Source: Thermoplasmata archaeon (GTDB taxonomy: Archaea > Thermoplasmatota > Thermoplasmata > Lutacidiplasmatales > UBA184). Taken from it: a stretch of DNA of 64,000 nucleotides. Position 1 is the stretch's first letter, and each line of letters begins with the position of its first letter. The notes under the pieces are model-generated. The model saw only the letters and a list, made by a program, of their open reading frames with translations, was not told the origin of the DNA and did not search any database. The translations under genes and the position numbers were made by a program. Of the stretch, positions 10,137 to 20,642 are shown one piece after another. Where the stretch lies: the NCBI GenBank assembly GCA_022750055.1, contig JAKIWL010000003.1, positions 119,300 to 183,299 of the forward strand, read 5' to 3'.

Positions 10137-10937
10137 ATGCCCGCACGATCCGAGTCAAGGCCCAGGACCGTCCGATGGACCCCTATCCCAGACCCCCCCG
10201 ACCGGTTCTCCACGGGGATCCCCGAGTTCGACCGCCTCCTGAGCGGGGGGTTTCCCCGTGGTGGCATGGCCCTCTTTCAGTTCGATGAGACGGTGACTCC
10301 AAGCGATCGGGAACTGTTGATGACCCCGACCCTGCTCAACTTCCTCGGTCAGTCGAACGGAATCATGGCCGTCCTGCCGGCGAGGGAATCGCCCCATGAG
10401 TTTCGTTCCCACCTCACCCGTTGGGTCACCCGACGGCTCTTCGACACCCGGGTCCGGGTCGTCTCGTATGTCGGGGAGGATTCGGAGGCCCCCTATGTCG
10501 TCGAGTTGAAGATCCGAGGGCCCCGGGCGATCTCTTCGAAGGAGAAGCGAGACAGCGCTCTGGCCATCAAGAGGTTGTCCCAGGCAGAGCGAGCGGTCCG
10601 AGGGGCCCGCTCAAGAATGTACCTGGAACTGATCGCCTTCGAGATCATGGACATGATCGCCGGCTCCGACACGGCCTCGAGAATGTTCTTCTTTGCGATC
10701 AAGCGGATTCGCCAGGTCGGAAACCTGTGCATTGGGATCCTCCGTCCCGGACTCGGCTGTGCGGACGCCGTTCGAGGAATGGCGGACCTCGAGTTCGCGG
10801 TGCACCGCGATGAGGTCGGTCTGACCCTCCGCGGGATTCGGCCTCCCTTCGCCAGCCACCGGGTCCTGCCCGATCCCCGGCGAGGGGTCCCGTGGGTCTC
10901 CTTGATGCCGATCCCGTCAAAACCGGGCCCCACCTAA
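10137..10937 (+). CDS. RecA-fold/KaiC-like protein lacking a Walker A motif
   Basis: FSTGIPEFDRLLSGGFPRGGMALFQFDETVTPSDREL: KaiC-like entry sequence but no P-loop; later IRQVGNLCIGIL... / DLEFAVHRDEVGLTLRGIRP resembles KaiC C-terminal strands. Confidence 0.65.
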   Translation: MPARSESRPRTVRWTPIPDPPDRFSTGIPEFDRLLSGGFPRGGMALFQFDETVTPSDRELLMTPTLLNFLGQSNGIMAVLPARESPHEFRSHLTRWVTRRLFDTRVRVVSYVGEDSEAPYVVELKIRGPRAISSKEKRDSALAIKRLSQAERAVRGARSRMYLELIAFEIMDMIAGSDTASRMFFFAIKRIRQVGNLCIGILRPGLGCADAVRGMADLEFAVHRDEVGLTLRGIRPPFASHRVLPDPRRGVPWVSLMPIPSKPGPT

Positions 10938-11116
10938 CTTCTGGACTCCCTGACCGGTGGGGCGGGCGACCCGAACGGGGACGGCCTTCCGAGGCCGTTG
11001 CGATGGAGGCCGCCGCCACCTGGGCCAAGGACCGGCAACCCACCTCACCCCTAGGGAACGTTGCGCTGGGGCGAATCCTCATTGCGCCCCGGCCCTCATC
11101 GCAGAGGGGAGGCAGG

Positions 11117-12280
11117 GTGTCCGTCCTTTGCGAGGTGATCTGGGATCCGGCGTTCCAATCCTACGACTTCGGACCTGGGCGGTGGTCCCGAGGCGGACCG
11201 AGATCGCTCTCGGTCGAGCTCATGGAACGAGCTGGGTTGTTCTCCGATCCGTCGCGCGCTCGCTGGAGGCACCGCGTGCGCCCGGCGAGTCGCCTGGAAC
11301 TACGGCGATTTCATGACCGACGATACCTCGACCTGGTTGAGAAGTTCAGCGCCCAGTCGGGGCGCATGTTCCTTGATTCGGGAGACACGCCCTCGTTCCC
11401 GGGGTGCGGCGCAGCCGCGAGCCGGATCGTGGGGGGTGCGATCGCTTCTCTCGAATCCGTTAGGGTGGGCCGTGCCCGTCGGGCGTTCCATCCTGCGGGC
11501 GGGCTGCACCACGCTCACCGAAGCCGAGCCGCAGGCTTTTGCATCTTCAACGACGTGGGGGTCGCACTCGCCCTTGCGACTGGCCCGGGCGGTGCCTACC
11601 GTCGAGTCGCGTACGTGGACATCGACGCGCACCACGGGGACGGCGTCATGTACGGCTTCTTCGATTCCGGACGGGTCCTCGATATCGATTTTCACCAGGA
11701 CGGGCGAACGCTCTTTCCCGGCACCGGTGCGGTCGAGGAGACGGGTCAGGGGGACGGAGCGGGGCTCAAGGCGAACGTCCCCCTTCCCCCCGGGACGGGA
11801 GACCGAGGCTTCGCCTCGGCCTTCTTGCGCGTGGTCCCGACCCTGCTCCGATCCTACCGACCCGAGATCATCGTGCTCCAGCACGGGGTCGACGGGCATT
11901 TCGGCGATCCTTTGGCGCGCCTACGTTACAGCGCTTCAAGCTTCTCGCTAGCCGTCGGGACCCTGATGGCGCTCGCCGAGGAGCTTTGCCAGGGTCGGCT
12001 CATCGTGACCGGGGGCGGAGGGTACAATCCCCGGAACGTTGCCCGGCTCCTGGCCGCATGCGGGTTCCTGCTGTCCGGTCAATACCCCCCCGAAGGAGCT
12101 CTCCCTGGGGCCTGGCGCGCACGTTTCGAGGTCGAAACTGGAGGGCGGGCTCCCGCGAACTGGCCGAATTTGCGTCCAGCCCCCGCGGGAGACCCGTCAC
12201 CCAGGGCCATCCGGAATGTCGTGCGCGCCCTCTCTGAGGAACTCGGGGTGAAGTTCCCGAGCGCTCGAACGGTGCGATGA
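11117..12280 (+). CDS. Histone deacetylase / acetoin utilization (AcuC) family deacetylase
   Basis: GLHHAHRSRAAGFCIFNDVGVAL, YVDIDAHHGDGVMYGF, LQHGVDGHFGDPLARL, GGGGYN; GTG start chosen because the longer ORF overlaps the upstream gene. Confidence 0.9.
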   Translation: MSVLCEVIWDPAFQSYDFGPGRWSRGGPRSLSVELMERAGLFSDPSRARWRHRVRPASRLELRRFHDRRYLDLVEKFSAQSGRMFLDSGDTPSFPGCGAAASRIVGGAIASLESVRVGRARRAFHPAGGLHHAHRSRAAGFCIFNDVGVALALATGPGGAYRRVAYVDIDAHHGDGVMYGFFDSGRVLDIDFHQDGRTLFPGTGAVEETGQGDGAGLKANVPLPPGTGDRGFASAFLRVVPTLLRSYRPEIIVLQHGVDGHFGDPLARLRYSASSFSLAVGTLMALAEELCQGRLIVTGGGGYNPRNVARLLAACGFLLSGQYPPEGALPGAWRARFEVETGGRAPANWPNLRPAPAGDPSPRAIRNVVRALSEELGVKFPSARTVR

Positions 12281-12530: not shown

Positions 12531-15014
12531 ATGCGCCGACGGATGAGCCACTGGTCCCGACCCGGCCGGATTCGAATCGTCTCCGCCCGGGTCGCCCTGT
12601 CGGTCCTGTTCGCAGCAATGCTCGCCTTCTCCGTCTACGGAACGCTCTCTCCTCCTCCCCTTCGCTGTGGTCTACCGGGCTCGGTTGGCTGCTCGGGCGG
12701 ACTGCTCGGTCCGGCCCTGGTGCCGGCAAGCTCCGGCGAGCAGTGGTTCACCGTCACGCTGTTCGACTACGGGTTCTGGATCGTCGATTCGACAACGGGC
12801 GCCAATGAGTCGACGGCTTGGAACGTCTTCGAAGGGTGGACGGTCCACGTCAACGCCACCAGTCTGGCCCCCGACGCGGCGGTCGGTGGGACCGCCTACC
12901 ACGGCCTAGGTGTCGAGCTCAATCAGACCGGCCAGCAACTCCTTTCCCTGGCCGCGCCGGTCGGAGCTTGGACCCCTGGGAGCTTCGTGGCCCCTCTCGC
13001 CGAATACCATCACCAGCACATCTGGTGCACGATCCAATGCGGTCCGGGCCACGGCGGGCAACAGGCCTGGGTCCTGAACGTAATCCCTTCGGTCCCACTG
13101 CCGAAAGCCACGGCCACCTCGAACCTGACGTCCGGGCGAGCCCCGCTCGCCGTCACTTTCACGGGGACCCCGAGCGCAGGGACGCCGCCGTACAATACCA
13201 GTTGGGACTTCGGGGACGGAACCGCGATCGGATACGGCGTCAGCGCGGGCCACACGTACGCGTTAGGGGGTGCCTACGAGGCCCAATTCCGAGTGACCGA
13301 CGCGAAAGGGATGGGCGCGACCGCGAGCGTGGGTATCCTCGTCAACTCCTCCGACCCGCTTCGGGCGTCCGTTTCCGCCGCCCCGACCCTCGGGGCGGCG
13401 CCGTTCACGAGTACGCTCAGTCTGATCGTGCATGGTGGCGCGCCGCCGTACACGTACGCATGGTCCTTCGGGGACGGGAGCACGGGCTCGGCCGGGAACC
13501 ATACGAGTCACCTCTACGCCGCCCCCGGTGTGTATGCGGTCGTCGCCACGGTCACCGACTCGCACGCGAGCTCGGTGCGGATCCTGACGTCGATCATCGC
13601 CTCCCCTCCCCTCGGCTATTTCCCGGTGACCGTCATCGCAAACCCACCGAACGGGTCCGCCCCTATCATCATCCAGATGAGCGCGACGCCGCTGGGTGGA
13701 ACCGCCCCCTATCGGTACCTCTGGGTCTTCGGAGATGGCTCGACGGGATCCGGGGCGTCCTCGGCCCATCAATACAACCTCACCGGATCGTACGAGGTCA
13801 ACCTGTTCGTGAGCGACTCCGCCGGTCACGTCGGGTCGGCGGCGGTCAACCTCCCCCTCGTCGCAGCCTCGGGCGGGGGCGGCGGAGGCGACGAACGCCC
13901 CGCGGGCGGCCCCCTCGCCTCCCCGGCGGCTGTCAATGGAACGCTCACGATCTTTCCCCTGGCGACTCCCCGAGACGGTGGCTCGCCTCTTCTCGTCAAC
14001 GCCTCGGCGTCCATCGAGGCGGGTACCGGATTGGGAGAGACGATCAGCTGGAATTTCGGGGATGGCACGACAGGATCCGGGACTCAGGTCTCCCATCAGT
14101 TCGCTCGGGTGGGGGCCTACAATGTCACCGTCACGGCGACCGATTCCGGCGGGAACCAGGGTTCCAACCGGACGGTGGTTCGGGTGGAGCCGCTCAGCAT
14201 GACGCTCGTGGCGAACCGGTCGCTCGGTGACCCGCCCATCTCGGTGACGACGGCCGTCTCGATCGTCGGCGGCACGGGCCGGTTCGGCGTCGTCAGTTGG
14301 AATTGGGGGGACGGCAATACGTCCTTCGGCAACCTCGTGAACCGGACCTACGGTCCGAACGAGACCGGACCGATCGTGATCCGTGCTTCGACCACGGACT
14401 CGTTGGGGACCCTTGTGAATGCCTCGATCACGCTTCAGGTGAACCCCGTACTCGTGGCGACGGTCAACGTCCGCCACCCGTCGTCGGTACTCCCCCCGGT
14501 CAATGTGGACTTCACGCTGGACACCCGGGGCGGGAGCGGCTCGTACAACGCCCTGCCGTTATGGGACTTCGGAGACGGCACGAGTACTCGCAGTGGCAAT
14601 GTGACGAATCATTCCTACTCGAAGCTCGGCGACTATCGGATCGTGGTGCGGACCAACGACAGCCTCGGAAGCTCGGTGGTCGCGAGCGCATGGCTGAACC
14701 TCACGGTCGCCCCACCGACCCAGCCGGTGAAGTTGGGAGGGAAGCCACCGTGGTCGCTCACCGGCGTCTCGGATCCCAACCGTGCTGCGCTCATCCTGAT
14801 CGGCATCGTGGCGGCCACGGGCCTCCTACTCCTCCAGCAACGTCGACGCCGGTCCAAGGCAAAGCCGACGACTCGTCCGAACCCCCGTCCGGGACCCGGT
14901 GCGACCGCACGCTCGGCTTCGCCTCCGTCGGTCGCTCGGCCCGCCAGTCGGCCGGTGACGGCGATCGGGGCGAAACCTGGCGCAGTCCCGCCGCCGTCGA
15001 AGGCCGTGAAGTAG
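12531..15014 (+). CDS. Membrane-anchored CuA-like cupredoxin domain fused to multiple PKD repeats
   Basis: N-terminal TM; AYHGLGVEL...HHQHIWCTIQCGPGHGGQ resembles the COX2/N2OR CuA site; repeated FGDGT/FGDGS PKD signatures; C-terminal TM (AALILIGIVAATGLLLL) plus basic tail. Confidence 0.75.
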   Translation: MRRRMSHWSRPGRIRIVSARVALSVLFAAMLAFSVYGTLSPPPLRCGLPGSVGCSGGLLGPALVPASSGEQWFTVTLFDYGFWIVDSTTGANESTAWNVFEGWTVHVNATSLAPDAAVGGTAYHGLGVELNQTGQQLLSLAAPVGAWTPGSFVAPLAEYHHQHIWCTIQCGPGHGGQQAWVLNVIPSVPLPKATATSNLTSGRAPLAVTFTGTPSAGTPPYNTSWDFGDGTAIGYGVSAGHTYALGGAYEAQFRVTDAKGMGATASVGILVNSSDPLRASVSAAPTLGAAPFTSTLSLIVHGGAPPYTYAWSFGDGSTGSAGNHTSHLYAAPGVYAVVATVTDSHASSVRILTSIIASPPLGYFPVTVIANPPNGSAPIIIQMSATPLGGTAPYRYLWVFGDGSTGSGASSAHQYNLTGSYEVNLFVSDSAGHVGSAAVNLPLVAASGGGGGGDERPAGGPLASPAAVNGTLTIFPLATPRDGGSPLLVNASASIEAGTGLGETISWNFGDGTTGSGTQVSHQFARVGAYNVTVTATDSGGNQGSNRTVVRVEPLSMTLVANRSLGDPPISVTTAVSIVGGTGRFGVVSWNWGDGNTSFGNLVNRTYGPNETGPIVIRASTTDSLGTLVNASITLQVNPVLVATVNVRHPSSVLPPVNVDFTLDTRGGSGSYNALPLWDFGDGTSTRSGNVTNHSYSKLGDYRIVVRTNDSLGSSVVASAWLNLTVAPPTQPVKLGGKPPWSLTGVSDPNRAALILIGIVAATGLLLLQQRRRRSKAKPTTRPNPRPGPGATARSASPPSVARPASRPVTAIGAKPGAVPPPSKAVK

Positions 15015-15024
15015 CGCACCGTCC

Positions 15025-15873
15025 ATGATCGGGTCGAGCGCTCAGGAACCCTCCCCACCCTCTCCGAACGAACCTGATCGCGCCGACCTCCCAGTGGTTC
15101 CGAGCGCACTCGGTCGTCGTGTCCTCCTGTACGAGTTCGTGGTGCTCGCCGAGTACTGGCTCGCCCCTACCTTGCTCGGCGTGACGAACTACGCCGGCAT
15201 TTGGTCGGACGTCGGTGTGCTCCTCTTCGTCCTCTTCGTCGGTTCGCTCGCGTGGTTCGTCCTTCGACCGCTCCGCCCCCACCTGAAGCGGGCTCTTCGA
15301 TCTCGCGAATCCCGTCTCGCCTTCCATGGTGTGTGGGCGGCCGCGCTCGCCGCGGCGCTGTTCGTGACGAATGTGTTTCAGATCAGCCGGCCGAGCGCGA
15401 TCGGCAGTTCGGTTCAACTCGGCGACACCACGGTCTACTCCCCGTTCGGGGCGTGGCCCAGCCTGACGGTCTACCTACCCAGGATCGGCCTGTTCGGAAC
15501 GTTCGATGTTGAGGTCCTCACCGTGCTCGGACTCATCTCCGTCCTCGGGTCGGCGGCGCTCCGCCTCGCGATCGACCGGAGGTCCACGACCTGCCCCGCT
15601 GTCCCGACCCGACCCTGGACCACGCGGGTCGCCACCGTCGCCGTCTGGTCGCCCCTTGGACTCATCACCGGATGCACGGCTTGTGCCCCTGCGTACCTCG
15701 CGATCCTCGGCCTCGTCGCGCCGGCGGCGTCGACCGGGCTCGCCTCGGTCCCGTTGGTCCCGTGGATCGGACTCGCTGGCCTTCTGTACCTGGGGAGCTT
15801 CGGTCTCGCCATCCATCTGATCCGGCGCGCGACGGGCCCGGCGCCCGAGTCGGTGGGGAACCCGGAGCCATAG
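15025..15873 (+). CDS. Polytopic membrane protein with intramembrane GCTAC cysteine motif
   Basis: Six to seven hydrophobic segments; SPLGLITGCTACAPAYLAILGLVAPA. Confidence 0.7.
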   Translation: MIGSSAQEPSPPSPNEPDRADLPVVPSALGRRVLLYEFVVLAEYWLAPTLLGVTNYAGIWSDVGVLLFVLFVGSLAWFVLRPLRPHLKRALRSRESRLAFHGVWAAALAAALFVTNVFQISRPSAIGSSVQLGDTTVYSPFGAWPSLTVYLPRIGLFGTFDVEVLTVLGLISVLGSAALRLAIDRRSTTCPAVPTRPWTTRVATVAVWSPLGLITGCTACAPAYLAILGLVAPAASTGLASVPLVPWIGLAGLLYLGSFGLAIHLIRRATGPAPESVGNPEP

Positions 15874-15879
15874 GGTCGG

Positions 15880-17262
15880 ATGGCGACGGCCGGCCCACCG
15901 ACCCAGATCTTTTGCCGGCTGTGCGGCCGGATGATGGCGCCCGCCTCCCGATGCCCGGGCTGCGGGTGGGTCGATCGGATCGGGCTGCTCGCGGAGGCGA
16001 GCTTCACTCCCCCCGCGCGGCCCTCGGCACCGGTCCCGCTCGCCCTGCCGGCCCGGCCACCGGCGTCCGCCCCCACGACGACCCCCGAGGCCCGCCCGTT
16101 GGGGTCCCTGATCGCCCCCACCTTCACCGACTCGCTGAGCACGTCGGGGGCCACCGGGAACACCCAGAGCGTCCCGGCCCCTTCGCTGGCCGTCCCACCG
16201 ACTGAAGCGGGGCCCAAGAAGGAACCGTCGCTGACCGCCCCGATTCGGCCCTCCGGATCACCCCGCCCGCCTTCGCCTAGGGCGCCGAGCCCCTCTGGAG
16301 CCGCTCGCGTCCCTCATTCCGCGGCGGCCGCCCGGAGCCCAGCGACCGCGCAGCGGGCGCGGACCCTGTCGCCCCGCGCTTGGCTCAAGGCGCTCTGGAA
16401 GCGCCACCTGCCGCCGGTTCGCCTGGTCTGGGTGTTCCTCGCGATCCTCCTATGGAACGGTCAAGGATTGAGGAACTTCGCCACGGCCCAGCCGCTGCTG
16501 CTGCTCCCGCTCGTCGCCGTGCTGGCCGACCTGGGTCTCCAAGCCGTCCGCTTCCCCAGGGTCCGCGTCCCGGACGCTGCAATCGCCAACGGCCTGTTCC
16601 TATCGGTGATCCTGTGGCCGACCCAGATTTCGCTCGCGCTCGTCGCGGTGGCCGTGGTCACGGTGGGGCTGCGGCACGCGGCCCGGGTCGCGAGCCACCC
16701 GATCTTCAACCCGGCCGCGGCGGGGGTCCTGATCGCCGCCACCGTCTTCGCCCTCCCCCAGCCTTGGCACATCGGGATCACGCGATGGGATACGCTCCTT
16801 GTCGCAGTGCTCGGACTCGTCCTCTGGTCCAAGGCTTGGCCCACCTGGAGGATCTGGGGTACCTACTTCGCGTGCAACCTGATCGTCGTCGTCGCCGTCG
16901 CCGACCTGCTCGGAGGCTCGAAGGCGGTCCCCCTCGTCCTGCAGACGTCCCTCCTCGGCACGACCCCTGTGTTCTTCGGTCTCTTCATGGTCACCGAGCC
17001 TCGGACGGCTCCGACCGCGCGTGTCGCGATGCTCGTCTTCGGCTCCCTCGTCGGGGCCTCCGCGGCCCTGCTACCGGTCCTCTTCGCCGAGTACACGGCC
17101 ATCTCCGCCCTCGGCGTCCTCGCGCCGTACCTCGCACTCTTCGTCGGGAACGTCTTCACCGTGGCCCTCCCGTCGGCGCGCGGGATCCGCCGGCCCGCGA
17201 CCGCCCCAGTCCCCACCCCGGCGCCCCGACGTCCGGCGGGCGCGGGCAGCGGGCCGTCGTGA
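15880..17262 (+). CDS. N-terminal zinc ribbon + Pro-rich linker + RnfD/NqrB-like membrane domain
   Basis: FCRLCGRMM...RCPGCGW zinc ribbon; HPIFNPAAAGVL and FFGLFMVTEPRTAPTA resemble RnfD/NqrB motifs. Confidence 0.65.
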   Translation: MATAGPPTQIFCRLCGRMMAPASRCPGCGWVDRIGLLAEASFTPPARPSAPVPLALPARPPASAPTTTPEARPLGSLIAPTFTDSLSTSGATGNTQSVPAPSLAVPPTEAGPKKEPSLTAPIRPSGSPRPPSPRAPSPSGAARVPHSAAAARSPATAQRARTLSPRAWLKALWKRHLPPVRLVWVFLAILLWNGQGLRNFATAQPLLLLPLVAVLADLGLQAVRFPRVRVPDAAIANGLFLSVILWPTQISLALVAVAVVTVGLRHAARVASHPIFNPAAAGVLIAATVFALPQPWHIGITRWDTLLVAVLGLVLWSKAWPTWRIWGTYFACNLIVVVAVADLLGGSKAVPLVLQTSLLGTTPVFFGLFMVTEPRTAPTARVAMLVFGSLVGASAALLPVLFAEYTAISALGVLAPYLALFVGNVFTVALPSARGIRRPATAPVPTPAPRRPAGAGSGPS

Positions 17263-17284: not shown

Positions 17285-18526
17285 ATGCGCCGTGCCGTGT
17301 CCCACCCCCAGGGAGACACGGTGACGCGACCGGACCGGGTCGGGCTGGATTGGTCCACGTTCTCGCTCCGCGAGACTCGTTCCCGGGTCCATGGGTGGAT
17401 GGCTCGGGGCCTTGCCACTGTGGTCGGAATCGCGGTTGCGCTCGGGTCCCTGTTGGCGGGCGGGATGCTGACGCTCTTCCCGACCCAGGGGGTGTACACG
17501 GCCGAAATCCTGAGCGGAAGAGGCCTCGCGGGCTGGTGGTTCTTTCCCGAGGTCCTCGTCGTCCAGCCGTGGGGGATCCTGCAGCTTCCCTGGCTTCCGA
17601 CCCTGGCGATGATCCTGGTGGCACTGGGGGCGGGATGGGGATCGGCCGCGTCCATCGGCGCGATCGTGCGTTGGCTCCGCCGCCGGACCCCGGGGGAACG
17701 GGGGGCCACGGTCGCCGGGATCGCGGCGGGAGCGGGCCCCGGGATCGCTTCGATGGCTACTCTCGGTGCCTGCTGCTGCACCTCCTGCACCTCAGCGGCC
17801 GGACTCGCGGTCGTGGCCGCGACGAGCGGAACGACGGTCGGCACGCTACTCCGGGTCGACTGGTACCTCCCCGTCTTCCAGGTCGCCGTCGTCTACCTGA
17901 GCCTCCTGGCACAGGAGCGCGCACTCCGCCGGACCGAGACCCTGGAGCCGACCTCGTCTCCGCAGGGTCGTTGGTTCCTCGTCGCAGCGGCGCTCCGAGT
18001 TGCCCTCCTCATCGCCGGGATGACCTGGTCGCTCGCGATGTTCGTCGAGTGGGGGACGGTCGATCCGGCCACGGCCTCCTCCGCGGACTGGTACCATTGG
18101 ATCTTCGAGCACCAGCTCCTGTCAATGATCGCCATCGCCGCCGCGCTGTTCCCCCGAGAGCTCGTATCTCTGTTCCAAAATCGGCCGTGGCGGATGCCGC
18201 TGTGGATAAGTCGCGCTGCGTTGCTCCTCGCCGGGCTGACCTGGGGCACCTGGGTGCCTCCCGCCCTCGTGAAACTCGGCTTGGGAGGCTTCGTCAACGA
18301 GCTGCTGGGCGCGATCGGGTTTCCCCCCTCCTGGGGGGCGGTGGCCCCGGACGTCGCAGTCGGGCCGGCCTTGGTGTTCCACTGGGCCTTCCAGCATCTC
18401 CTACTCTCTGGATTCTCCTTGACCCTCGCCCTCTCCCCCACGATCGCGGCCCGGGCCGTCCTAAACTCGACCTCGGCGCCCTCCCCCTCCTCGGGGGCGC
18501 AAGGAGATGTGGTTCCCTCCGCCTGA
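17285..18526 (+). CDS. Polytopic membrane protein with GACCCTSC cysteine motif
   Basis: Many TM segments; ATLGACCCTSCTSAAGLAVVAATSGTTVG; start ambiguous (ATG 17285 or GTG 17321). Confidence 0.7.
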   Translation: MRRAVSHPQGDTVTRPDRVGLDWSTFSLRETRSRVHGWMARGLATVVGIAVALGSLLAGGMLTLFPTQGVYTAEILSGRGLAGWWFFPEVLVVQPWGILQLPWLPTLAMILVALGAGWGSAASIGAIVRWLRRRTPGERGATVAGIAAGAGPGIASMATLGACCCTSCTSAAGLAVVAATSGTTVGTLLRVDWYLPVFQVAVVYLSLLAQERALRRTETLEPTSSPQGRWFLVAAALRVALLIAGMTWSLAMFVEWGTVDPATASSADWYHWIFEHQLLSMIAIAAALFPRELVSLFQNRPWRMPLWISRAALLLAGLTWGTWVPPALVKLGLGGFVNELLGAIGFPPSWGAVAPDVAVGPALVFHWAFQHLLLSGFSLTLALSPTIAARAVLNSTSAPSPSSGAQGDVVPSA

Positions 18527-18698: not shown

Positions 18699-19823
18699 TC
18701 AGAACGGTCGGTTCGGTCGGGATCGGCCGCGATACGCGGCCAGGGCGAGGACGCTGACCATCCCAACGGCGACCGCCATCACCTCGGTCGAGGCCGGAGT
18801 GATCGCCCACGCCGGTAGGAGGCCGTGGGTGAACGCCGTGAGGTTGAGTTGTACCAGAGGGTCGTACTCGAGCTCGGAGTACCCGCCGCGGGTCGCGTTG
18901 AATCGCAGGAGGACCGTCGACGCCGACGCATCGCGAGAGAAGTTTCGGTAGGCTACGACCGAGCTGTTCGACCCGGGCCCGCTGCCATAGGCGACCGACG
19001 CCGACGAGACCCAGGAGAGGGTTGCGACGGTCTGATGGCTGCCGTTGGCGACCTCGAGGACCGAGTTCGGGGCGACCCCTGGGATGAGGGTAGTCGAGGG
19101 CACCGCGACGCTGGCGATCTCCATCCCCAGGACGTCGCGTGTGTCCGTCCAGGGCCAATGGTCGACCGCCACGTCGAAGCTGACGGACGACGGAGCCGGC
19201 GCCGCCGAGGCGTTGAGCGTGAAGGTCAGGGAGACGTTGGTGCTCCCCGGACCACTGTCGAGAACGGAGACCTCGTCGCCGGATTCCCAGCCGCCGTGGG
19301 TGAAGCTGACGCGGGCGGTCGCGTTGAGCCAGACCATCTCCCCGCCGCCGCTCGGGGCGGAGGCGATGCGCCAGGTGACGTTCTGGGTCAGGAACGGAGC
19401 GAAGGCCGTGACGTTTCCCGTGGGGGTCACCTCCGCGATCCGCTCGAACGAGTGCACCGAGGCGACCCGACCGTCCCGGTCGGAGGTGATGGTGAACGAG
19501 GGAAGAGGGTTCGTCAAGGTCAGGCGTACGACGCCATTGTCCCACGTCCCGGCCGCCGAGTCGAGGAGGTGCAGGCCCGTCCCGACCCTTGCCATTGAGC
19601 CCGCCGGGCCTCCTAGGCCGGAGGGCCCCAGAACGATCGTGATCGCGGCGAGGGCGACGAGCGCGGCGGCGTAGGCGCACCACGTCGGGGCCCTCCCGGC
19701 GCCCCTGGATTCCATCGGATGGTGGTGTATCCGGATGCGAGGATTCGTCGGTTTTGGCGCAAGACCCGCAATCGTTGGTGCGTAGATTGTCATTCCAGGG
19801 GGCTCGTCGCTCCGACCCTTCAT
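18699..19823 (-). CDS. Secreted/surface protein with N-terminal signal anchor and C-terminal TM
   Basis: AYAAALVALAAITIVLGPSG near N-terminus, extracellular Ser/Thr/Asn-rich body with many N-x-S/T sequons, C-terminal TM and basic tail; exact start uncertain. Confidence 0.6.
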   Translation of the reverse strand: MKGRSDEPPGMTIYAPTIAGLAPKPTNPRIRIHHHPMESRGAGRAPTWCAYAAALVALAAITIVLGPSGLGGPAGSMARVGTGLHLLDSAAGTWDNGVVRLTLTNPLPSFTITSDRDGRVASVHSFERIAEVTPTGNVTAFAPFLTQNVTWRIASAPSGGGEMVWLNATARVSFTHGGWESGDEVSVLDSGPGSTNVSLTFTLNASAAPAPSSVSFDVAVDHWPWTDTRDVLGMEIASVAVPSTTLIPGVAPNSVLEVANGSHQTVATLSWVSSASVAYGSGPGSNSSVVAYRNFSRDASASTVLLRFNATRGGYSELEYDPLVQLNLTAFTHGLLPAWAITPASTEVMAVAVGMVSVLALAAYRGRSRPNRPF

Positions 19824-20341
19824 CGGAGCAGCGCGCTCCAGGTCTCGACGAACCGATCGACCAGCCGATCCCGGAACGATTCCCGATAGAGACCGAGGAG
19901 TTCCGCGAGACGCTTCGGTTGGGAGGGTCGGAACCGGCGAAGATTCCCGTCCCGAAACATCTCGACCGCGCCGACCCGAAGGAGTTCACGCAGGTGGAAC
20001 GAGGTCGTGCTCAGGCTCATTTCCGTGGACTCGCTCAGACCGGCGACGGTCAATCCCGGCTCTGCGGCGAGCGAGATCAAGAGTCGACGCTGGGTCGAAC
20101 TGCGCAACGAACGCAGTAACTTCCGGTCGTCCCACGCTACACTGGGACGAAAGTAGTAGTCCCGACGGCCCCCGCGTTCTCGACGAACCGCCCCGGCTCG
20201 GGTGAGCTGATCCAGGTGGTAGGCGGTCTCCCCCCAGGCGAGGCCGGAGAGGCGTTGGACGTCGCGCGCGCTCGAACCCGGATGGCTCCCGACTACCTCG
20301 TAGATCCGCCGGCGGGTCGGCTGGTCGAGAATATCATCCAT
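19820..20341 (-). CDS. ArsR-like tandem winged-helix transcriptional regulator
   Basis: RRRIYEVVGSHPGSSARDVQRLSGLAWGETAYHLDQLTRAGAV and RRLLISLAAEPGLTVAGLSESTEMSLSTTSFHLRELLRVGAV: two wHTH domains. Confidence 0.82.
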   Translation of the reverse strand: MDDILDQPTRRRIYEVVGSHPGSSARDVQRLSGLAWGETAYHLDQLTRAGAVRRERGGRRDYYFRPSVAWDDRKLLRSLRSSTQRRLLISLAAEPGLTVAGLSESTEMSLSTTSFHLRELLRVGAVEMFRDGNLRRFRPSQPKRLAELLGLYRESFRDRLVDRFVETWSALLR

Positions 20342-20642
20342 GCTTCTCCGGGGCCCGCTCGGGTCGCCGTCGGACCAGGGCGACGTACAGGAGGACCACC
20401 GCCACGACGGCGAGGGCAAGTGGAACGTCGTCGACCGCAAACCCCCCTCCGTACCGGGGAGAGAGCTGGTGCAGCAGGGAGAGGATCCCGATCGCCATCA
20501 GAAGGCCCTGCGCTCCGCCGACCGCGCCCAGTCTCGCGTCCCGGTATCGCGCGGCGGCGGCCAAGCCGATCGTCAAGAGGATCGCCGAAAGCCCGGCGAG
20601 CAAGGTGGAGAGAAGAACAGTCAGCAGTTCCACGGTTCTCAA
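20334..20642 (-). CDS. Small membrane protein co-transcribed with wHTH regulator
   Basis: 102 aa, three TM segments; overlaps the regulator start by 8 nt. Confidence 0.65.
   Translation of the reverse strand: MRTVELLTVLLSTLLAGLSAILLTIGLAAAARYRDARLGAVGGAQGLLMAIGILSLLHQLSPRYGGGFAVDDVPLALAVVAVVLLYVALVRRRPERAPEKHG

Follow-up and report, generated by a model that had tools for sequence, protein, structure and literature searches.

A CuA-type cupredoxin domain joined to PKD repeats in Thermoplasmata and its linkage to an RnfD-like membrane protein

Established CuA sites are, to our knowledge, few, and are those of cytochrome oxidases, nitrous oxide reductases and PmoD. What, then, might a domain with the ligand layout of a CuA site be doing in a PKD-repeat protein of an uncultured Thermoplasmata archaeon, apart from any oxidase? 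The question is raised by a gene lying at 12531–15014 of the 64,000-nucleotide stretch of DNA analysed here (hereafter, the window), which comes from a genome assembly of 1.5 Mb. A first-pass annotation of the letters alone had described its product as a CuA-like cupredoxin with the axial Met replaced by Gln, displayed on PKD repeats. In the open-access literature, where absence is no proof, we found no paper that joins CuA or cupredoxin domains with PKD domains.

Architecture of the PKD-linked protein

The frame at 12531–15014 is open throughout and encodes 827 residues. The features of the gene and its product are as follows (window coordinates).

12465: TTG, alternative start of the CuA-like/PKD gene
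12531–15014, + strand: CuA-like/PKD surface protein, 827 aa (open reading frame with translation; homologues)
12570–12647, + strand: N-terminal hydrophobic helix, signal peptide or retained anchor (hydropathy; family N-termini)
12663–12692, + strand: juxtamembrane conserved Cys pair C46 and C54, R-C-x7-C-x-GG (alignment A2)
12732–13088, + strand: CuA-like cupredoxin domain (profile–profile comparison with COX2, next hits being COX2, structure model, fold matches)
12900–12902, + strand: His124, first His ligand position, invariant (alignment, profile–profile comparison)
13026–13061, + strand: ligand loop C166-x3-C170-x3-H174-x2-Q177 (alignment, profile–profile comparison)
13110–14720, + strand, outer limits approximate: six PKD-type repeats (Pfam, motif scan)
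14772–14850, + strand: C-terminal membrane helix, with RRRR and a Pro-rich tail after it (hydropathy; conserved in close orthologues)

The codons of the putative ligands start at 12900 (His124), 13026 (Cys166), 13038 (Cys170), 13050 (His174) and 13059 (Gln177), and their spacing is that of the CuA pattern H...C-x3-C-x3-H-x2-X, with Gln in the Met position. The first-pass annotation had correctly placed the His codon of TAYHGLGVEL at 12900. Its limits for the Cys motif (13020–13061) were right at the end, but the start lies three bases earlier, HIWCTIQCGPGHGGQ spanning 13017 to 13061. The whole protein has only four Cys, at residues 46, 54, 166 and 170, and the C46/C54 pair was also invariant in alignment A2.

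Downstream of the CuA-like domain, a motif scan located six FGDG/WGDG cores at residues 225, 311, 398, 507, 590 and 678 (starting at 13203, 13461, 13722, 14049, 14298 and 14562). Pfam PKD_4 matched six stretches (E 6.7e-61), and with their WxFGDG cores these were recognized as PKD repeats (PF18911/PF00801). Hydropathy placed a C-terminal helix at residues ∼749–771. The fusion to several PKD repeats, the C-terminal transmembrane anchor and the predicted surface location, all read earlier from the single protein, were supported.

The N-terminal hydrophobic stretch (residues ∼14–39), which the annotation did not mention, lies ∼30 residues ahead of the CuA-like domain. Comparison of the family N-termini revealed that the motif at the helix exit, FSxYG(T/S)xxPxxLRC, is conserved family-wide. 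One would not usually expect this of a cleaved signal peptide, and it suggests that the helix is retained. With the helix uncleaved, the CuA domain may be membrane-proximal as in COX2, with the PKD array forming a loop between two anchors. Cleavage of the helix would instead leave the domain at the tip of the stalk, as originally pictured. The idea of display on a PKD stalk thus stands as regards the PKD fusion, but placement at the tip holds only upon cleavage.

Distribution, ligand conservation and relation to COX2

Single-sequence searches followed by profile searches yielded 27 full-strength members, all from one Thermoplasmata family, in which they occur in 19 of 103 genomes and five of seven genera, with at most three copies per genome. 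Beyond that family, 400 sampled genomes of the class and 293 of the phylum yielded no comparably strong match. We counted the ligands in a 26-row alignment (A2) together with one member read separately (L049). The first His, the second Cys and the second His were present in all 27 proteins, and the first Cys in 26, being Arg in L031; hence 26 of the 27 have all four Cys/His ligands in the order H...C-x3-C-x3-H. This conservation, which held down to ∼45–50% identity, indicates that the CuA/COX2-type layout is real and more than a chance resemblance, the two Cys having passed the comparison among orthologues.

The axial position behaved differently from these four. It is Gln in 20 of the 27 proteins, Met in six and Leu in one, so that the axial Met of COX2 is not a property of the family. 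In the window protein Gln177 occupies the axial Met position, as the annotation had read it. On a tree built with the axial residue masked, and with the COX2 outgroup counted, the axial states need six changes. The position was therefore switched repeatedly, the exact number of switches not being firm because branch support within the family is modest. The earlier likening of this residue to the Gln of stellacyanin-type cupredoxins was apt insofar as Gln is the commonest state, but it is not fixed, and a residue that varies among Gln, Met and Leu looks less like a mark of stellacyanins than like a position at which a CuA-type domain can be tuned. The residue midway between the two Cys, whose carbonyl binds copper, is Glu in COX2 and Gln or Trp in others. 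In the present family it is mostly Ile, which counts against the CuA reading.

Curated models did not recognize the domain. Pfam COX2 (PF00116) matched none of the 26 members searched, no curated COX2 model of Pfam or NCBIfam (including TIGR02866) was matched above its cut-off by the domain or by the profile, and a PDB sequence search with the family profile gave no match. The nearest curated models, both weak, came from NCBIfam: L-NosZ matched 6 members (best E 0.0068) and CoxB matched 4 (best E 0.03). Evidence from the side of the family was stronger: the best matches of the A2 profile beyond its own family, in the 103 genomes, had E-values of 3e-7 to 1e-4, and these matches, when read, were genuine COX2 proteins with CTEFCG..H..M or CTVPCGPGHSGM.

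Profile–profile alignment by hhalign of A2 with a 14-sequence COX2 alignment (A3) gave a probability of 97% (E 5e-11) and paired H, C, C, H and Q of the family with H, C, C, H and M of COX2, that is, at all five ligand positions. A control against an unrelated RnfD-like alignment gave 0.2% (E 0.28). We took the pairing from this comparison; the MAFFT joint alignment (A4) misplaced the first His relative to COX2 because of an indel. On the strength of these profile comparisons, we concluded that the domain is related to the CuA domain of COX2. A pair of short COX2-like proteins carrying CTVPCGPGHSGM (L118:3743–4897 and L119:4600–5754) fall, by sequence, between normal COX2 and the PKD-linked family.

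A structure model computed from family and COX2 rows had a pLDDT of 92 and a pTM of 0.85. Its best fold matches were subunit II of caa3 oxidase (2yev_B), copper nitrite reductase, CyoA with an engineered CuA site, Thermus CuA (2cua) and nitrous oxide reductase; the cupredoxin AcoP was also among the matches. As the input held 14 COX2 rows, the likeness of the model to COX2 is supportive and not independent proof of the fold. Modelling from six near-identical rows alone failed (pLDDT 32). The predicted fold is that of a cupredoxin of the CuA type.

An RnfD-like gene as the constant neighbour

The best clue to function comes from the genes downstream, which in the window are the following.

15025–15873, + strand: mem15025, multi-helix membrane protein with a conserved C-x2-C-x-P (loci compared)
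15880–17262, + strand: NQR2/RnfD-like membrane protein with an N-terminal four-Cys knuckle, C12, C15, C25 and C28 (PF03116, linkage, alignment)
17321–18526, + strand: mem17284, membrane protein with ACCC..C, YHWxFEH and FHWxFQH (loci compared)

Close relatives L004 and L006 have all three beside the CuA-like gene, and L007 has the first two; mem15025 directly follows the CuA-like gene in 8 loci. Across the family, the RnfD-like gene is the constant neighbour. It did not figure in the first-pass annotation. In 20 of 23 testable loci it lies shortly downstream in the same orientation, next to the CuA-like gene or separated from it by the first membrane protein. The remaining four of the 27 loci (G169, G215, G149:C21 and G199:C14) were left out as a contig border lay too near. 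As these genomes of 1.2–3.6 Mb have one to four RnfD-like genes each, the downstream placement is far beyond chance, which we estimate at below 1% per locus. The neighbour is missing at G149:C5, G231:C41 and G389:C42, whose CuA-like proteins form a small branch of their own with axial Leu or Met.

In an alignment of nine partners, the four Cys of the knuckle (C-x2-C-x9-C-x2-C) were invariant. RnfD-like paralogues read away from CuA-like genes have no knuckle and a different C-terminal domain, and so the partner subtype is specific. PF03116 scored above its cut-off in five of the nine partners, the window copy falling just below it (26.0 versus 27.7 bits). The S/T-G-A-T flavinylation motif was found in the membrane domain of none of the partners; the one SGAT of the window copy sits in a Pro-rich linker. 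The profile of the four-Cys knuckle resembles zinc ribbons, which counts against the reading favoured below.

Several other observations concern the same gene families. In one open frame (L054:9407–10879, G274:C22) a CuA-like domain whose first Cys is replaced by Arg continues in frame into the membrane domain of an RnfD-like protein, and both PKD repeats and the Cys4 knuckle are absent; the join may be a fusion or the relic of a deletion. A second RnfD-like subtype, without the Cys4 knuckle and with a C-terminal domain LGPSVILSYD...TETDLYEDYGFAEFNGDDYAVSGC, occurs in many genomes of the Thermoplasmata family (L015:6725–8527, L016:7607–9046, L017:8223–9653 and L071:2568–3989).

As a specific partner of the CuA-like protein, mem17284 was weakened by its presence in 93 of the 103 genomes, mostly elsewhere than beside a CuA-like gene. 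Its linkage to CuA is confined to close relatives, and in one of two unlinked loci read it lies beside a radical SAM gene. The protein has no Pfam match and is possibly metal-binding. On the minus strand at 18699–20440 of the window are a winged-helix regulator of the HVO_0163 type and a putative membrane protein; this pair, a possible regulator, is also near the cluster in several relatives, upstream or downstream. Directly upstream of the CuA-like gene (10892–12280) is a gene for a histone deacetylase-family protein (PF00850, E 5e-75), which was not found near the CuA-like gene in L004, L006, L007, L008 or L009.

Candidate functions and comparison with known systems

The reading that we favour, by a modest degree, is that of a free-standing, membrane-anchored, extracytosolic CuA electron carrier working with an RnfD-like conduit. 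The CuA-type domain, apart from any oxidase and joined to the PKD array and the C-terminal anchor, would bind copper, presumably as a binuclear centre. Electrons would cross the membrane through the RnfD-like protein, perhaps with the help of a flavin or quinone that is bound non-covalently, and this protein would exchange them outside with the copper site in a contact between the two proteins; the electron transfer and its direction are what we infer from homology and gene linkage. The PKD array may set the spacing or bind a surface partner, and changes among Gln, Met and Leu at the axial position, with the other four ligands kept, may tune the copper potential. The CuA-like protein would thereby take the place of the outside flavoprotein of bacterial two-subunit Nqr/Rnf-like systems. 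We count against this explanation the Arg in place of the first Cys in one member, the three paralogues without an RnfD-like neighbour, and the RnfD-like protein having no flavin-attachment motif in its membrane domain.

Homology to COX2 and the weak CoxB and L-NosZ matches in NCBIfam could be taken to mean that the protein is subunit II of a heme-copper oxidase or belongs to a nitrous oxide reductase complex, to which we attach very little weight. No oxidase subunit I motif was found in 24 stretches around CuA-like genes, the whole window included, and the same search did find HHM(F/Y/W) in an oxidase locus that served as positive control. The source genome encodes a separate, normal CoxB that has every ligand, Met included, and whose gene lies with those for Rieske, cytochrome b and oxidase proteins. 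On these two grounds an oxidase subunit was rejected. A nitrous oxide reductase was rejected likewise: L-NosZ scored over its cut-off in none of the 103 genomes (its many weak matches hit the propeller part of the model), and the protein has PKD repeats instead of the CuZ β-propeller. No more credible is a structural adhesin domain, in which the Cys pair would form just a disulfide and the CuA likeness would be a relic. Many cell-surface and adhesive proteins do have PKD repeats, but in such a domain the His and the axial position would drift freely, yet the His are invariant throughout the family.

Two readings that retain copper deserve more attention. In one, the CuA-like fold binds copper at the cell surface and passes it to a recipient, for example the oxidase, for acquisition, storage or delivery without electron transfer, the Cys-rich membrane neighbours acting in transport. 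Those neighbours do have His pairs as well as Cys motifs that are conserved (C-x2-C-x-P; ACCC..C), and two further conserved Cys lie just outside the membrane. We nevertheless consider this unlikely. The family retains the complete set of CuA ligands, the two His among them, and varies its axial position only among residues that redox copper sites tolerate; its constant partner is related to RnfD and is not a transporter; and the Cys-rich mem17284, widespread as it is, mostly occurs without a CuA-like gene. Slightly less probable still is a mononuclear, type 1-like site on a CuA scaffold, which would hold one copper through Gln (or Leu) and a changed Cys loop, would be blue, green or red, and would still transfer electrons. 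Stellacyanins, with one Cys and one copper, have Gln as axial ligand. AcoP is among the fold matches, and chimeric loops convert the Thermus CuA domain to a type 1 site (PMC7480511). A one-copper site would not, however, need both bridging Cys, which are found in 26 of the 27 proteins, and the loop C-x3-C-x3-H-x2-X has precisely the length seen in CuA.

Returning to the carrier with its RnfD-like conduit, the gene linkage and ligand pattern suggest a previously undescribed electron-transfer pair. A fuller proposal, which we advance tentatively and which may well prove wrong in part, is that of a new two-component archaeal transmembrane conduit: an RnfD-like protein with a cytosolic Cys4 metal knuckle, and a surface protein with a natural CuA site outside any oxidase or nitrous oxide reductase, its axial Gln being exchanged with Met or Leu. 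If the partner is real, this would be an undescribed path for electrons through the membrane of uncultured Thermoplasmata. What the axial residue does in CuA is known mostly from mutants. The natural alternation of Gln, Met and Leu, with the other ligands kept, would allow the tuning of CuA potentials to be studied in evolved proteins. According to PMC10447441 (citing Hwang 2005 and Ledesma 2007), the axial residue influences CuA potentials, and does so less than in blue copper proteins.

Among known systems, COX2 (PF00116/TIGR02866) is like the family in its predicted fold, in the order and spacing of ligands, and in the juxtamembrane position of the domain after an N-terminal helix. Unlike COX2, the family has mostly Gln as axial residue, ∼8 extra residues ahead of the first His, no Glu between the Cys, and a PKD array with a second anchor; its genes are not beside subunit I and it remains below Pfam detection. 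With nitrous oxide reductase (classical and L-NosZ) it shares the CuA fold, and the weak L-NosZ match of six members, but not the catalytic propeller domain. The axial Gln is shared with stellacyanin-type cupredoxins; unlike these, the family has two Cys, and no sequence relation to them was found.

A CuA site outside oxidases and nitrous oxide reductase is already known from PmoD, where it is built differently (PMC6189053). The family resembles PmoD/AmoD in having a predicted CuA centre in a membrane-anchored cupredoxin outside oxidases. The PmoD site is assembled across a homodimer from Cx7MxHxnC (PMC6189053), unlike the ligands of the family, which are all in one chain in the COX2 layout.

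The arrangement of the partner genes finds its likeness in the two-subunit bacterial Nqr/Rnf-like systems without the flavinylation Thr, for which electron transfer from NAD(P)H to extracytosolic acceptors, by way of an outer flavoprotein, has been proposed (PMC11334425). Both comprise an NqrB/RnfD-like subunit without that Thr and an extracytosolic redox protein, a putative one in the present family. The outside partner is a flavoprotein of the NqrC/RnfG type in the bacterial systems and a CuA-like protein in the present family, and the cytosolic part is an NAD-binding domain in the former and a four-Cys knuckle in the latter.
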